Shown here: piece by piece, positions 13,378 to 28,785 of the stretch
How positions within the stretch are numbered: the first letter of the stretch is position 1
Layout: each line of letters starts with the position of its first letter
Source: an uncultured Prevotellaceae bacterium
GTDB taxonomy: Bacteria > Bacteroidota > Bacteroidia > Bacteroidales > Bacteroidaceae
Assembly: GCA_902769805.1 (NCBI GenBank)
Contig: CACXQL010000053.1
Span: forward strand, 1 to 40,721
Direction of reading: 5' to 3'
Length of the DNA: 40,721 bases
Translations under genes and position numbers: made by a program
The notes under the pieces: generated by a model
Database searches by the model: none
What the model saw: the letters and a program-made list of their open reading frames with translations, nothing else
What the model was told of the DNA's origin: nothing

Positions 13378-15390
13378 ATGAAGAAATACATCATCATTCT
13401 TTTTTTGTCAATAGTCAACAGCCAATTGGCAAATGCTCAGATTGGCAAATGGAGAGCCTATATGGCTTATTATGATGTACAACAGATACAAAAGGCTGGT
13501 AATGAACTTTTTGTGATGGCAAGTAATGATCTCTATCAATATAATCTCAACGACCAGAGTATCTATACATACGACAAGACAAATGGTATGAGTGACACCT
13601 ATCTCACACATATCAAATGGTGTCCTAAGGCAGAACGTCTGATAGCTGTTTATCAAAACTCCAATATCGACCTGGTTAGCTTGGAGAATGATGTTGTCAA
13701 TGTTAGTGATCTATATACCAAGGTCATTACTGGAGATAAAACAATTAATCATATTACTATCTATGAACAATATGCCTATCTTGCATGCGGTTTCGGTATT
13801 GTGAAACTGGATGTTGCCAACTATGAGATCAGTGAGTCGTATATGCTCAAGCAGAATATTCAGAATATCGTTATCAAAGATAATGTCATCTATGCCAAGA
13901 CAGATAAAAATGTCATCTGTGGTTCTCTCAAGAAAAACCTGATAGACCCAAATAACTGGCAGACAACGACCATCTTTCCTCCCTTTGACGATGACAATAC
14001 CGACTATAACACTTATATTGAAACTGTCAGGAAATTGAATCCTGGAGGACCTAAATATAACCACTTCTTCAATATGCAAATGTATCATGGGAAACTGTAT
14101 ACAGTAGGAGGAGGGTGGTATCAATCTGCTAATTTCAGGAGACCTGGAACGGTTCAGGTATTAAACGAAGATAAAGACTGGATTATTTATCAGGATGATA
14201 TCAAACCTGCTTTTGCTCCAAGATATGAAGATATCAATTCTATCGCCATTGATCCTTTAAATGAGAATCATGTGATGGTTGCCTCCTGTTCAGGAGTCTA
14301 TGAGTTCCTTGATGGAAAATTCAAGAAAAACTATACTGCAGGAAACGTCAGTTATTTTGAATCCGCTGCCAGCAATGGAGATCCTAATTATGTTCGTACG
14401 GATGGTATCATCTACGACCAAGAAGGCAATCTCTATTGTTTAAATAGTGGTTCTAAGACTGGTATCATCAAACTAAGCAGTGATGGTAAATGGAGTGGAT
14501 TTATGAATAAGGCACTTATTGATAAACCAGAGCATGCTATGCGAGTGATGAAAGGCTCCATGATAGATAGTCGCGGACTATTATGGTTTGTCAATGCCCA
14601 TAGTGATCATCCTGCTTTTTTCTGTTATGACTACCAGAATAATGAGATTTTTAAATATGATAACTTCACCAATGAAGATGGAATCAGTCTGTCAAATAGT
14701 TGGACAGAATGTATTTGTGAAGATAAAGATGGAAATATTTGGGTAGGAACAGATAAGGGTCCTGTCTATATTACAACAACTGAAATGGCTGATCCATCCA
14801 TTGGAGTCATTCAATATAAAGTACCAAGAAATGATGGCACAGACTATGCCGATTACCTGCTGGCAGGGATATATATTACCAGTATAGCTATTGATGGTGC
14901 AGGACGCAAATGGTTTGGTACGAATGGCAATGGTGTATATCTCATCAGTGCTGATAACAATACTCAAATACAGCATTTTACGACTACTAACAGTCCATTA
15001 TTAAGTGATAATATTGAATCTATAGCCATTGATAATAAAACAGGTGAAGTATTCTTTGGAACAACAGCTGGTCTTTGTTCTTATATGAGTGATGCTATAG
15101 AACCCTCTGAAGAAATGACAGATGATAACGTGTATGCTTATCCTAATCCTGTGAATTTCAATGATTATAATGGACTTATTACTATCGTAGGTCTTACCTA
15201 TAATGCAGATGTAAAGATTACCAATGCTACAGGTTTCCTTATTGCTGAAGGACGTAGTAATGGTGGATTATTCACATGGGACGGCAAAGACAAAAAAGGT
15301 AATCGTGTAGCCAGTGGAGTCTATAACGTCATTACTGCTACAAAAGACGGAAAGAAAGGAACAGTATGCAGAATAGCTATCGTCAAATAA
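13378..15390 (+). CDS. porZ: PorZ-like type IX secretion system beta-propeller protein
   Basis: The 670-residue protein has a signal peptide (residues 1-20, ending LANA before QIGKWRAYM). Two beta-propeller domains follow, with repeating two-component-regulator-propeller strands such as WVGTDKGPVYI and WFGTNGNGVYLIS. The C-terminal sandwich domain (VYAYPNPV ... GLFTWDGKDKKGNRVASGVY ... CRIAIVK) looks like a type IX sorting domain. This layout is that of PorZ of Porphyromonas gingivalis, a surface component of the T9SS attachment complex that binds A-LPS. The N-terminal IGKWRAYMAYYDVQQIQKAG is a good family match. At 670 residues it is shorter than the roughly 780-residue P. gingivalis protein. 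The composition is markedly A+T-rich. It overlaps the following cotH-like gene by 25 nt. Confidence 0.8.
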   Translation: MKKYIIILFLSIVNSQLANAQIGKWRAYMAYYDVQQIQKAGNELFVMASNDLYQYNLNDQSIYTYDKTNGMSDTYLTHIKWCPKAERLIAVYQNSNIDLVSLENDVVNVSDLYTKVITGDKTINHITIYEQYAYLACGFGIVKLDVANYEISESYMLKQNIQNIVIKDNVIYAKTDKNVICGSLKKNLIDPNNWQTTTIFPPFDDDNTDYNTYIETVRKLNPGGPKYNHFFNMQMYHGKLYTVGGGWYQSANFRRPGTVQVLNEDKDWIIYQDDIKPAFAPRYEDINSIAIDPLNENHVMVASCSGVYEFLDGKFKKNYTAGNVSYFESAASNGDPNYVRTDGIIYDQEGNLYCLNSGSKTGIIKLSSDGKWSGFMNKALIDKPEHAMRVMKGSMIDSRGLLWFVNAHSDHPAFFCYDYQNNEIFKYDNFTNEDGISLSNSWTECICEDKDGNIWVGTDKGPVYITTTEMADPSIGVIQYKVPRNDGTDYADYLLAGIYITSIAIDGAGRKWFGTNGNGVYLISADNNTQIQHFTTTNSPLLSDNIESIAIDNKTGEVFFGTTAGLCSYMSDAIEPSEEMTDDNVYAYPNPVNFNDYNGLITIVGLTYNADVKITNATGFLIAEGRSNGGLFTWDGKDKKGNRVASGVYNVITATKDGKKGTVCRIAIVK

Positions 15391-16786: not shown

Positions 16787-16816
16787 AATGCTGGAGATTA
16801 ACTCAACTCCAGCATT
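16787..16816. terminator. Bidirectional hairpin terminator between cotH-like gene and nadA
   Basis: A perfect 10-bp stem, AATGCTGGAG (16787-16796) with CTCCAGCATT (16807-16816), has a 10-nt loop. It is followed by TTTCT on the plus strand and preceded by A-rich DNA, which reads as U-rich on the minus strand. It separates two convergent genes and overlaps the nadA stop codon and last sense codons. Confidence 0.85.
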
Positions 16817-17790
16817 TTCTCTATAGGTTTTACTGCCTTTTTAGCTATCTTAGTATCAACTTCAACTGTTGGCCACTCATATTTTAAAGTATTATAAATC
16901 TTCAACAGAGAATTCATCTTCATATAGTCACATTCGTTACAATGACAACCAATAGAACCTTCTGATACCTCTGGCGGTACTGGATAGAACTTGGTATCAG
17001 GACACTGACGTTGCATCTCATGTAAAATTCCAGCCTCTGTAGCCACGATATACTCTTCGGTGGGGTGTTCTACCGCATACTTCAAAAGAACGGCCGTAGA
17101 GCCTACTATATCGGCTATAGCGAGTACTGGACCTTTACATTCTGGATGAGCAAGTACTAATGCTTTAGGATGTTCTTCTTTTAGTTTAATAATCTCAGGT
17201 ACTGAGAAACGCTCATGTACATGACATCCACCATTCCATAACAACATTTTTCTGCCTGTTATCTCATTAATATAGGATCCTAAATTATAATCAGGACCAA
17301 AGATTATCTTAGCATCTTTAGGAAAGGTATCTACAATCTTCTTAGCATTACCACTGGTAACTACTACATCTGTTAATGCCTTAACAGCAGCTGTAGTATT
17401 GACATAACTGATTACTTGATAACCAGGATGTGCTTCCTTGTATTTCTTTAAATCATCTGCCTTACAACTGTCAGCAAGAGAACACCCAGCGTTCAGATCA
17501 GGACATAATACAAGTTTGTCTGGAGAGAGAATCTTACAGGTCTCAGCCATAAAATGAACTCCACACATTACTATTATTTTGGCATCTGTCTCTGCAGCCT
17601 TACGAGCCAATGCAAGAGAATCTCCTATAAAATCTGCAATCTCTTGTATCTCACCCTTCGTATAATAGTGAGCTAATATGACAGCATTCTTTTCTTCTGC
17701 CATACGACGAATTTCTTTTTGAAGATCAATACCTTCTGTAATAGGTTCGTCTATAAATCCTTGTTTAATCCATTCAGTTTTCAACTTCAT
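16798..17790 (-). CDS. nadA: Quinolinate synthase NadA
   Basis: This 330-residue [4Fe-4S] enzyme condenses iminoaspartate with dihydroxyacetone phosphate to quinolinate in NAD synthesis. Motifs are NAVILAHYYTKGEIQEIADF, VMCGVHFMAETCKIL (first cluster Cys region), CPDLNAGCSLADSC, WNGGCHVHERF and GSIGCHCNECDYMKMN (last Cys region). The open frame extends 26 codons further up, but the ATG at 17790 is chosen because conserved sequence starts there and an A-rich leader precedes it. No nadB or nadC is adjacent. The upstream gap carries DnaA boxes, so its promoter may lie within a candidate origin. Confidence 0.96.
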   Translation of the reverse strand: MKLKTEWIKQGFIDEPITEGIDLQKEIRRMAEEKNAVILAHYYTKGEIQEIADFIGDSLALARKAAETDAKIIVMCGVHFMAETCKILSPDKLVLCPDLNAGCSLADSCKADDLKKYKEAHPGYQVISYVNTTAAVKALTDVVVTSGNAKKIVDTFPKDAKIIFGPDYNLGSYINEITGRKMLLWNGGCHVHERFSVPEIIKLKEEHPKALVLAHPECKGPVLAIADIVGSTAVLLKYAVEHPTEEYIVATEAGILHEMQRQCPDTKFYPVPPEVSEGSIGCHCNECDYMKMNSLLKIYNTLKYEWPTVEVDTKIAKKAVKPIEKMLELS

Positions 17791-17898
17791 ATTATTATTA
17801 TCTTTTTTTATTTTTTCTTTTAAATTAAAAATGAAATGAGTATGATGATACAGCGTTGATAAGTGCAAAACTTTTTGCTAATTTTCTTGGTATTTTAT

Positions 17899-18161
17899 TT
17901 ATACACTAATATAACACTTGTTTTATACATACTCTGTGAATACTTTCTTATTGATTTATAATCATATAAGATATTTATCCACATTTTCTAATTTTGGTGC
18001 AAATATAATAAGTTTATAATTTTTTCTTGCAAAAAATAGGAGAAAAGTGAGTGAAATCCCTGTGATTTATGATTTTTATCCACTGATAGAGTAGGGGTGG
18101 TATGGGAAAAAAAATACTAATGCACAAGTTATAAACATACTTATCCACTAGTTTATCCACA
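17899..18161. other. Candidate chromosomal replication origin (DnaA-box cluster)
   Basis: The 376-bp gap between nadA and the TrmH-type gene is very A+T-rich and holds DnaA-box sequences. TTATCCACA occurs at 17975-17983 and 18153-18161, TTATCCACT at 18076-18084 and 18141-18149, and TTATACACT at 17899-17907. All share one orientation, and the last two are 12 bp apart centre to centre. A+T-rich segments between them could serve as an unwinding element. Two parS sites lie about 8-9 kb away, and polA and mnmG are nearby. The boxes are seen directly; origin function is inferred. The gap must also contain the nadA promoter. Confidence 0.55.
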
Positions 18162-18166
18162 TTTAT

Positions 18167-18703
18167 TTAATATCGTAAAATAAGTGTCTCTGCAAACTTA
18201 TAGATGATAATACCTGCTGTTACACTGACATTCATAGAGTGTTTAGTACCTAACTGTGGTATTTCCAGACAGCCGTCTGAAGCATCTACTACTTTCTGAT
18301 GTACTCCTTTTACTTCATTACCAAGAATAACAGCATATCGTTGTCCTTCTTGTGGAATAAAGGTCTGTAATTTCGTAGAGTGTTCTACTTGCTCTACAGA
18401 AAGTACTTGATAACCTTCATTTTTCAATTCATCTACAGCTTCTAATGCTGTCTTAAAGTATTTCCAGTTTACAGAATCCTCAGCACCCAATGCTGTCTTA
18501 TGTATTTCTGTTGCTGGTGGTGTACAACTGATACCACAGAGATAGACAGCTTCCACTCGAAAAGCGTCACAGGTACGGAAAACACTACCTACATTATACA
18601 TCGAACGTACATCATCAAGTACGACTATCAGTGGTAGTTTATCAGCTTCTTTAAATTCCTCAATGGAAAGTCGCTGCATTTCTATAGTACGTATTTTTCT
18701 CAT
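18167..18703 (-). CDS. TrmH/SpoU-family RNA 2'-O-methyltransferase
   Basis: This 178-residue SPOUT methyltransferase probably methylates a ribose 2'-OH in tRNA or rRNA using S-adenosylmethionine. The three family motifs are present: DVRSMYNVGSVFRTCDAF (motif 1), YAVILGNEVKGV (motif 2) and IPQLGTKHSMNVSVTAGI (motif 3, forming the knot). It lacks the N-terminal substrate-binding domain of RlmB-type enzymes, so it is a minimal TrmH-like member; the exact target base cannot be told. It lies 6 bp downstream of polA on the same strand and is probably cotranscribed with it. Its 3' end abuts the DnaA-box gap. Confidence 0.92.
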   Translation of the reverse strand: MRKIRTIEMQRLSIEEFKEADKLPLIVVLDDVRSMYNVGSVFRTCDAFRVEAVYLCGISCTPPATEIHKTALGAEDSVNWKYFKTALEAVDELKNEGYQVLSVEQVEHSTKLQTFIPQEGQRYAVILGNEVKGVHQKVVDASDGCLEIPQLGTKHSMNVSVTAGIIIYKFAETLILRY

Positions 18704-26865: not shown

Positions 26866-28785
26866 CTATCGACCCATTAAGACCAACATAACATTAATGT
26901 CGCTAGGGGAAACGCCAGGAATTCTACTGGCCTGCGCAAGCGTTTCTGGATCAACAGCAGTCAGTTTTTGACGAGCCTCCGTACTAAGTTGTTGCATTTC
27001 GTTGTAGTTGAAGTGTCCTTTGATTTTAATATTCTCTAGACGATGCATCTTATCTGCAACGATTCTTTCGCGTTCAATATAGCCTTTGTATTTAATATGT
27101 ACTTCGGCAGCTTCTGCGATTTCTTCTTTCCGTTGAGACGGATGGTTTAGTATTTCTTTTAATTCTGGGATAACTTCTTGTAGTTTTTCGAAGTTTAATT
27201 CTGGACGTGCTATCAAGTCTTCGAGTTTACAACCATAGACGAGTGGAGTTGAGCCTAATGCCTCCAAAGCGCCATTGATGGTTTTGGGTTTGATGTGGTA
27301 TTCTTTACAGAAGGTCTCAATATTCTCAATCCATGATTTCTTTTGTGTCCACCAATCGTATCTATCCTTTTTGGCAATGCCTATCTGGTAAGCTCTTTCT
27401 GTAAGTCGTGCATCCGCATCATCCTGGCGAAGCAAGATACGATATTCTGCACGAGAAGTAAACATACGATATGGCTCATCGACACCCTTTGTCACTAAGT
27501 CATCAATTAACACCCCAATATAAGCTTCGTCGCGATGCAACACGAACGTTGCGGCTGATGCTGTGTCACAGCAACCACCAGTACCAGCAAACAATGCAGC
27601 ATTGATACCAGCAATTGTTCCCTGTCCTCCAGCTTCCTCATATCCAGTGGTGCCATTGACCTGTCCCGCCATGAATAATCCCTTTATAATTTTCGATTCC
27701 AACGAGTGTTTCAACTGGGTAGGATCGAAGAAATCGTATTCGATGGCATAGCCTGGACGATATACTTTTAAGTCTCTGAAAGCAGGAATATGCCGTAAGG
27801 CGGAAATCTGTATGTCCATCGGAAGAGAAGAAGAAAAACCATTCAAATACATCTCATTGGTGTCTGTTCCTTCTGGTTCCAAGAATAAAGGATGTTGCTC
27901 TCTGTCAGGGAAGGTCATCAGTTTTGTCTCTATCGAAGGACAATAGCGTGGTCCGATAGACTGAATCTGTCCGTTATAGAGTGGGGAGTCTTTGAGACCA
28001 AAACGTAATGTCTCATGGACAGCGGTGTTAGTATTACATGTCCAACAGGTCAGTTGAGGCAGTGGGCGTGGCTCACTGATATATGAGAACCGATGGAAGT
28101 CATGTTCTCCCTCTTGTATTTCTAAATCCTCGAAATGAACGGAACGTTTGTCGATGCGTACAGGGGTACCTGTCTTCATACGTTCAGAACGGATACCATG
28201 ACGAGTAATGCTTTCTGTGAAATGTGGAACAGCAGGTTCTGCAATACGTCCACCAGGTATCATCTTGCGCCCGATATGCATCAGTCCGTTTAAGAAAGTG
28301 CCTGCTGTTATAATGACAGCCTTTGCCCTCAACTCAACTCCCCAGATGGTTTTCACGCCCACAACCTGTTTTGTTTGTTGCGACTCATTCGCAAAAGACT
28401 CAACCAGCAGTTCATCGGCCTGGTCTTGCCAGACATCGAGATTATCAGTATGGTCAAGAACGCTTCTCCATTCCCAGATGAATTTTCCGCGATCACACTG
28501 GGCACGAGGACTCCACATCGCTGGTCCTTTGCTACGATTCAGCATCCGGAATTGGATGGCGGTGGCATCTGTCACCAAACCCATCTGTCCGCCTAAAGCA
28601 TCAATCTCTCTGACGATCTGTCCCTTGGCAATGCCTCCAACGGCTGGATTGCACGACATCTGTGCTACCTTGTTCATGTCCATTGTGACAAGACACGTCT
28701 TTGCTCCCATGTTAGCAGCGGCACATGCTGCCTCGCAACCAGCGTGACCTCCTCCAATGACCAGTACGTCGTATTTCAATATCAT
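26866..28785 (-). CDS. mnmG: tRNA uridine-34 carboxymethylaminomethyl enzyme MnmG (GidA)
   Basis: A 639-residue FAD protein that, with MnmE, installs the cmnm5 group at wobble uridine 34. The N-terminus is the dinucleotide-binding fold YDVLVIGGGHAGCEAACAAA, then SCNPAVGGIAKGQIVREIDA and GTFLNGLMHIGRKMIPGGR. The insert Cys region includes CWTCNTN. The C-terminal helical domain, which binds MnmE, ends LAQASRIPGVSPSDINVML. Length normal. mnmG adjoins the origin in many bacteria, which fits the parS sites and the candidate oriC here. Only 3 bp separate its ATG from the sodB stop. Confidence 0.98.
   Translation of the reverse strand: MILKYDVLVIGGGHAGCEAACAAANMGAKTCLVTMDMNKVAQMSCNPAVGGIAKGQIVREIDALGGQMGLVTDATAIQFRMLNRSKGPAMWSPRAQCDRGKFIWEWRSVLDHTDNLDVWQDQADELLVESFANESQQTKQVVGVKTIWGVELRAKAVIITAGTFLNGLMHIGRKMIPGGRIAEPAVPHFTESITRHGIRSERMKTGTPVRIDKRSVHFEDLEIQEGEHDFHRFSYISEPRPLPQLTCWTCNTNTAVHETLRFGLKDSPLYNGQIQSIGPRYCPSIETKLMTFPDREQHPLFLEPEGTDTNEMYLNGFSSSLPMDIQISALRHIPAFRDLKVYRPGYAIEYDFFDPTQLKHSLESKIIKGLFMAGQVNGTTGYEEAGGQGTIAGINAALFAGTGGCCDTASAATFVLHRDEAYIGVLIDDLVTKGVDEPYRMFTSRAEYRILLRQDDADARLTERAYQIGIAKKDRYDWWTQKKSWIENIETFCKEYHIKPKTINGALEALGSTPLVYGCKLEDLIARPELNFEKLQEVIPELKEILNHPSQRKEEIAEAAEVHIKYKGYIERERIVADKMHRLENIKIKGHFNYNEMQQLSTEARQKLTAVDPETLAQASRIPGVSPSDINVMLVLMGR

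Follow-up and report, generated by a model that had tools for sequence, protein, structure and literature searches.

The window, that is the whole stretch of 40,721 nucleotides analysed here, contains a gene-free gap of 376 bp with an A+T content of 76%. The gap is bounded by the start of nadA at 17790 and by the end of a TrmH-type open reading frame at 18167. The original prediction had described a 376-bp, A+T-rich and gene-free gap between nadA and a TrmH-type gene, and the sizes and neighbours found here agree with it. All five sequences that it had claimed for this single gap, four TTATCCACA/T boxes together with one TTATACACT, were recovered where it had placed them, and all lie in one orientation, on the + strand. 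Although the earlier coordinates begin at TTATACACT, it is probably the gap as a whole that functions as the unit. The features of the locus are as follows, with the basis of each assignment in brackets.

16798..17790, − strand: nadA, quinolinate synthase, left neighbour of the proposed origin (NCBIfam, 431 bits, cut-off 294)
17791..18166, no strand: predicted oriC, the gene-free A+T-rich gap between nadA and the TrmH-type gene (gap sequence; skew flip in the window and in the nadA gaps of relatives)
17899..17907, + strand: DnaA-box-like TTATACACT (sequence; box-like word ~105-114 bp from nadA in some relatives)
17921..17929, + strand: TTTTATACA, a decayed copy of a box column (column consensus TTaTccACA over 35 aligned gaps)
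17974..18025, + strand: conserved origin block of box, spacer and GGTGCAAAnnTAATAAGTTTATATCTTTTT (gap alignment and core searches)
17975..17983, + strand: DnaA box TTATCCACA, conserved better than any other box; proposed to be R1-like and to adjoin the unwinding element (conservation in relatives)
18000..18007, − strand: possible −7 promoter element for nadA, TATATTTG, overlapping the block (sequence and known consensus)
18005..18025, no strand: proposed DNA unwinding element, 95% A+T, with TAATAAG inside at 18006-18012 (putative function)
18039..18046, − strand: reverse-oriented box-like site, decayed, GGAGAAAA in the window versus GTGGAAAA in relatives (alignment)
18076..18084, + strand: DnaA box TTATCCACT (sequence)
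18129..18137, + strand: weak box-like TTATAAACA, site 1 of 3 at 12-bp spacing (sequence and alignment)
18141..18149, + strand: DnaA box TTATCCACT, site 2 of 3 of the 12-bp array (sequence and relatives)
18153..18161, + strand: DnaA box TTATCCACA, site 3 of 3 of the 12-bp array (sequence and relatives)
18167..18703, − strand: TrmH/SpoU-type RNA 2′-O-methyltransferase, right neighbour (profile matches)

The TrmH-type frame matches models of rRNA and tRNA 2′-O-methyltransferases, every match lying below the cut-off. In the window this gene (18167-18703) is codirectional with nadA. Of the nadA-linked block loci that have the gene close to the core, 22 show the divergent arrangement and three the codirectional one. 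Its orientation in the window apparently reflects a local inversion at the origin. A neighbouring trmH is dispensable, since many loci keep boxes beside nadA without it. Further away, a PorZ-type gene (type IX secretion) is located at 13378-15390 and mnmG (gidA) at 26866-28785, 8.7 kb from the gap. The latter gene adjoins oriC in E. coli and is a common oriC neighbour in other phyla. An A+T-rich stretch is present beside the conserved box (95% A+T at 18005-18025), while the least stable DNA of the window is the intergenic segment 8531-8630 between the mutS and leuS frames; the gap is less weak.

The box cluster beside nadA

The source assembly (2.67 Mb, 97 contigs, 85% complete) contains 44 copies of TTATCCACW, four of which occur within 187 bp in the gap. 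The next closest pair in the whole assembly is 967 bp apart. The genome-wide box count proposed with the original prediction thus reveals no equal or denser TTATCCACW cluster elsewhere in this 85% complete assembly. Dinucleotide shuffles of the gap never reached four copies (0 of 5000; largest count, 1) and the genome-wide rate leads to an expectation of ~2e-7 clusters as tight in the genome. Relaxed searches are less striking than the exact one: over the whole window, 25 sites with at most one mismatch were found versus 12.8 expected, roughly a two-fold excess. For TTATNCACA alone, four copies in the window compare with 1.9 expected and 11 of 100 shuffles reach four, so that no clear enrichment is seen.

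A search for nadA in 100 genomes gave matches in 73; the comparison with relatives comprised the loci of the 30 best matches and 11 further chosen loci, a selection in which the more distant members are poorly represented. A box word is found 179-185 bp from the nadA start in 35 of 37 genus loci, counted with the window included and two two-contig species (G056 and G092) set aside. It is an exact TTATCCACA in 23 of them and a variant in the other 12. Many loci have additional box words at about +125 and, spaced by ~12 bp, at about +333 to +370. The sampled relatives thus retain the box cluster beside nadA; the original prediction had asked for this comparison. Variation exists nonetheless: G150 carries TTATGCACA at the usual +180 position, without an exact TTATCCACA, and none of the searched box words is present beside nadA in G009, despite a skew flip there. 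Overall, the position is conserved among related chromosomes, the exceptions being G056, G092 and seven loci at which the core described below lies beside a DUF3108 gene.

A two-box pattern searched in the family matched only 11 of 151 genomes; this pattern is too strict because boxes vary. Clusters fitting it are present in G031, G066, G098, G120, G124 and G148. In G148 and G120, which belong to another genus of the family, two DnaA-box pairs are found within ~300 bp per genome (L009, L010, L012 and L013), with no nadA match. These pairs are possibly the origins of the two genomes.

Strand composition and the position of dnaA

Skew was measured at the third codon positions of long open frames, as plain GC skew is too noisy owing to gene orientation. 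In the window the plain skew is near zero (left −0.003, right +0.016) and the genes beside the gap mostly point towards it; the signal therefore needs third positions. At these positions, the skew left of the gap is −0.14 for + genes and −0.16 for − genes, and right of the gap it is +0.05 for both. The switch is therefore independent of gene direction. These figures derive from 27 hand-listed frames and cover the source genome within the 40.7-kb contig.

Complete chromosomes of the same genus extend this picture. An origin at the nadA gap predicts the sign of the skew in 18 of 20 samples in G005, 20 of 20 in G150 and 18 of 20 in G194. In G009, from another genus of the family, 19 of 20 samples fit an origin upstream of nadA. 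On a 10-kb grid the nadA gap is the best-scoring origin in all four, and the opposite switch occurs about half a chromosome away in the complete relatives. The samples, mostly of 20 kb, were spread around the chromosome; resolution is finer at the predicted origin because samples were placed flush against it. In G149, a member of another genus, four stretches of one contig agree weakly (left −0.03 and −0.25; right +0.01 and +0.16). The skew minimum, which the original prediction had named as a check, thus falls at the gap as a third-position flip in the window, and at the nadA gap as best origin in G005, G150 and G194.

The dnaA gene was not found in the 85% complete source assembly; it is above the cut-off in all eight relatives searched. 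In the DnaA proteins of four inspected relatives, RDHSTV is retained, aligned to RDHTTV of E. coli. An origin beside dnaA was considered and rejected: ~0.59-0.84 Mb separate the gene from the nadA gap in G005, G150, G194 and G210, and in G056 and G092 dnaA and the conserved block are on different contigs. The expectation in the original prediction that the origin need not adjoin dnaA is in keeping with the large distances in the complete relatives.

A conserved block in two genomic settings

The best conserved part of the aligned gaps is a block of ~50 bp, which is more than an isolated box. The alignment comprises 35 of the 41 loci (L025, L042 and L121-L124 were left out). Across these 35 gaps the order is TTTATCCACA, a variable spacer, GGTGCAAAnnTAATAAGTTTATATCTTTTT and then the reverse box-like site GTGGAAAA. 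This block was overlooked in the original prediction. The copy in the window ends in GTTTATAATTTTTT and has two differences from the consensus within its last 19 bp.

Of 200 genus genomes, 59 contain the exact 19-base core AATAAGTTTATATCTTTTT, and the backward control matched in none; the exact core is therefore common in the genus, not universal. The source genome lacks it. When up to two mismatches were allowed, 120 of 200 genomes matched; this figure was set aside because the backward control then hits too often (62 of 200, counted by hand). In G166, a complete one-contig genome of the genus, neither a nadA match nor the core was found. The exact core occurs once per genome except in G193, which has three copies. 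There, contigs C13, C26 and C30 carry three nadA genes with the exact core ~215-235 bp upstream of each, which may reflect origin copies or mixed strains in the assembly.

Furthermore, a 24-base form of the core was scanned against one genome for each of 84,980 species and yielded at least 120 loci. Among the matches listed (80 titles), nearly all are from Prevotella, Prevotellaceae, Segatella, Hoylesella, Xylanibacter, Leyella or Marseilla; the rest of those listed comprise two named only as Bacteroidales, one Bacteroidaceae and one Bacillota. We take Segatella, Hoylesella, Xylanibacter, Leyella and Marseilla to be relatives or splits of Prevotella. In the 120 listed loci the core is fixed by the search itself, and the surroundings are free to vary. 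A forward box word stands just before the core in 106 of the 119 listed loci that are long enough, and in 87 it is an exact TTATCCACA. Around the core, 234 exact TTATCCACA copies occur in 82.3 kb versus 27 in 791 kb elsewhere in the same 120 loci, an enrichment of ~80-fold. Among these loci, 63 have 1.5 kb on both sides and could be used for skew. The sign changes from negative to positive across the block in 45 and in the reverse sense in one. The other 17 do not change sign (14 negative on both sides, three positive on both), and the pooled skew passes from −0.15 to +0.07.

The core lies within 600 bp of nadA in 103 of the 120 listed loci. Among the 17 without a nearby nadA, nine loci end less than 330 bp to the left of the core, seven have a DUF3108 gene and one (L214) fits neither case. 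These seven include Prevotella multiformis, P. bivia and P. dentasini. The same neighbour is met in the two-contig genus members. In G056 and G092, the region upstream of nadA has neither the searched boxes nor the block; the block is found on the contig that does not carry nadA, with two adjacent TTATCCACA boxes and beside a DUF3108 gene (identified as such for G056). On the far side of the block in G056 lies a gene for the small chain of ribonucleotide reductase. Skew in G056 flips at the block, with agreement of 11 of 11 samples, and does not flip at nadA, where both flanks are negative (−0.15 and −0.12). The flip, the boxes and the block thus coincide away from nadA in this genome, and in species with this arrangement the block goes with the origin and not with nadA. 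In both genomes (L125 and L128) the contig that bears dnaA is not the one with the box cluster and the block. Nine samples of that second contig in G056 gave no clean skew switch.

Interpretation and comparison with known systems

We propose that the gap is the oriC of the main chromosome of a Prevotella-group bacterium, and we assign a probability of about 0.94 to this predicted replication start. The original prediction of oriC or an origin-linked DnaA locus gains strong support from the unique cluster, the skew flips, the kept position and the block accompanying the origin.

Two other accounts of the boxes deserve consideration. A cluster produced by chance or by local composition has a negligible probability. 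It would draw on the A+T-richness of intergenic DNA and on the near-box words that are common in the window, and we reject it because it is contradicted by the shuffle test, in which none of the 5000 sequences gives four TTATCCACW, and by the box positions kept among the sampled relatives. DnaA-box clusters outside oriC are known, and the boxes here are upstream of nadA, so that DnaA could regulate this gene from a titration or regulatory locus of the datA kind which would not be a replication start. This we regard as very improbable: the skew flip, on which we reject such a site, falls exactly where an origin would be expected, at the gap in the window and at the gap upstream of nadA in the complete relatives, and the assembly has no second TTATCCACW cluster to serve as the origin.

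A further question concerns the block itself. It might mainly be the promoter of the left gene (nadA, or elsewhere the DUF3108 gene), the origin using only the boxes. The Bacteroidetes −7 promoter element has the consensus TANNTTTG, and the block holds its reverse complement, CAAANNTA. In either setting the left gene points away from the core, its start lying at a distance of ~200-240 bp. In addition, TGCAAA words followed by TTAA-like letters are found upstream of nadA in some other genera; we dropped these words as origin evidence, as they may be promoter elements only. We nevertheless consider this account unlikely. In G056 and G092, nadA is away from the block and has no such upstream sequence (at least 11 of 30 positions mismatch). 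Across the 35 gaps, the possible −7 element and the stretch that follows it, TAATAAGTTTATATCTTTTT, vary about equally little, and a forward box stands on one side and a reverse box-like site on the other. Given the match of CAAANNTA to the complement of the −7 element, a promoter for the left gene may overlap the block, and both roles could be true.

Under the oriC reading, DnaA would bind the box at 17975 and the array spaced by 12 bp at 18129-18161. The duplex could then open over the 95% A+T stretch at 18005-18025, where the strand carrying TAATAAG would act like the region after box R1 in E. coli. R1 is the name of the E. coli box next to the unwinding element. The helicase would be loaded next and forks would leave in both directions, the leftward one through nadA and the rightward one through the TrmH-type gene and polA.

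In this scheme the block would be the unwinding module. A broader proposal, which we put forward tentatively as somewhat less probable than its negation, is that the block is a lineage-specific and nearly invariant unwinding module made of the box, GGTGCAAAnnTAATAAGTTTATATCTTTTT and the reverse box-like site. It would be a transferable cassette in many Prevotella-group origins, marking oriC beside nadA or DUF3108, including in two-contig genomes with dnaA on the other replicon. The two settings of one module, nadA and DUF3108, constitute a natural experiment on which part of the origin matters. Prevotella-group bacteria are abundant in the gut, rumen and mouth, and the origin position must be known if growth rates are to be estimated from metagenomes. 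With a sequence tag for oriC in many of these bacteria, origins could be located even when the assembly is fragmented, a situation in which dnaA does not help.

The locus resembles the E. coli oriC in having the TTATCCACA box, a short spacer and TAATAAG on the same strand. The spacer to TAATAAG measures 14 nt in E. coli, 22 nt in the window and 13 nt from the nearer of the two adjacent boxes in G056 and G092; 22 nt equals 13 nt plus one box length. The two origins differ in their neighbour genes and in the bases after TAATAAG.

In the accessible part of PMC8287927, the basal unwinding system is described as a DnaA box, a spacer and DnaA-trios. The window has a box and a spacer of similar length, and the A-centred triplets AAA TAT AAT AAG can be read by eye at 18001-18012. 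The basal unwinding system calls for three or more such triplets no further than 16 nt from the box; in the window, four triplets can be read in one frame with a 17-nt spacer, 1 nt above this limit, and the reading depends on the choice of box and frame. The window triplets also differ from those described there in not being of the GAT type (PMC8287927), and the main text of that article contains no word beginning with ‘bacteroid’.

For the first chromosome of Prevotella intermedia OMA14, the accessible part of PMC4755523 places a predicted oriC far from dnaA, at a GC-skew transition (476 bp) with multiple DnaA boxes. The locus described here shares these traits; in contrast, the conserved block is not described and the neighbour genes are not given in that part of the report (PMC4755523). 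The literature searched, in the accessible portions of PMC4755523, PMC8287927, PMC8235120, PMC13342612, PMC6323995 and PMC7111523 among others, contained neither a Prevotella origin at nadA nor the block; subscription journals and DoriC fall outside this search, and entries for such origins may exist in DoriC. As a class, chromosomal origins like this one are well known; what is added here is a well-marked lineage-specific module.
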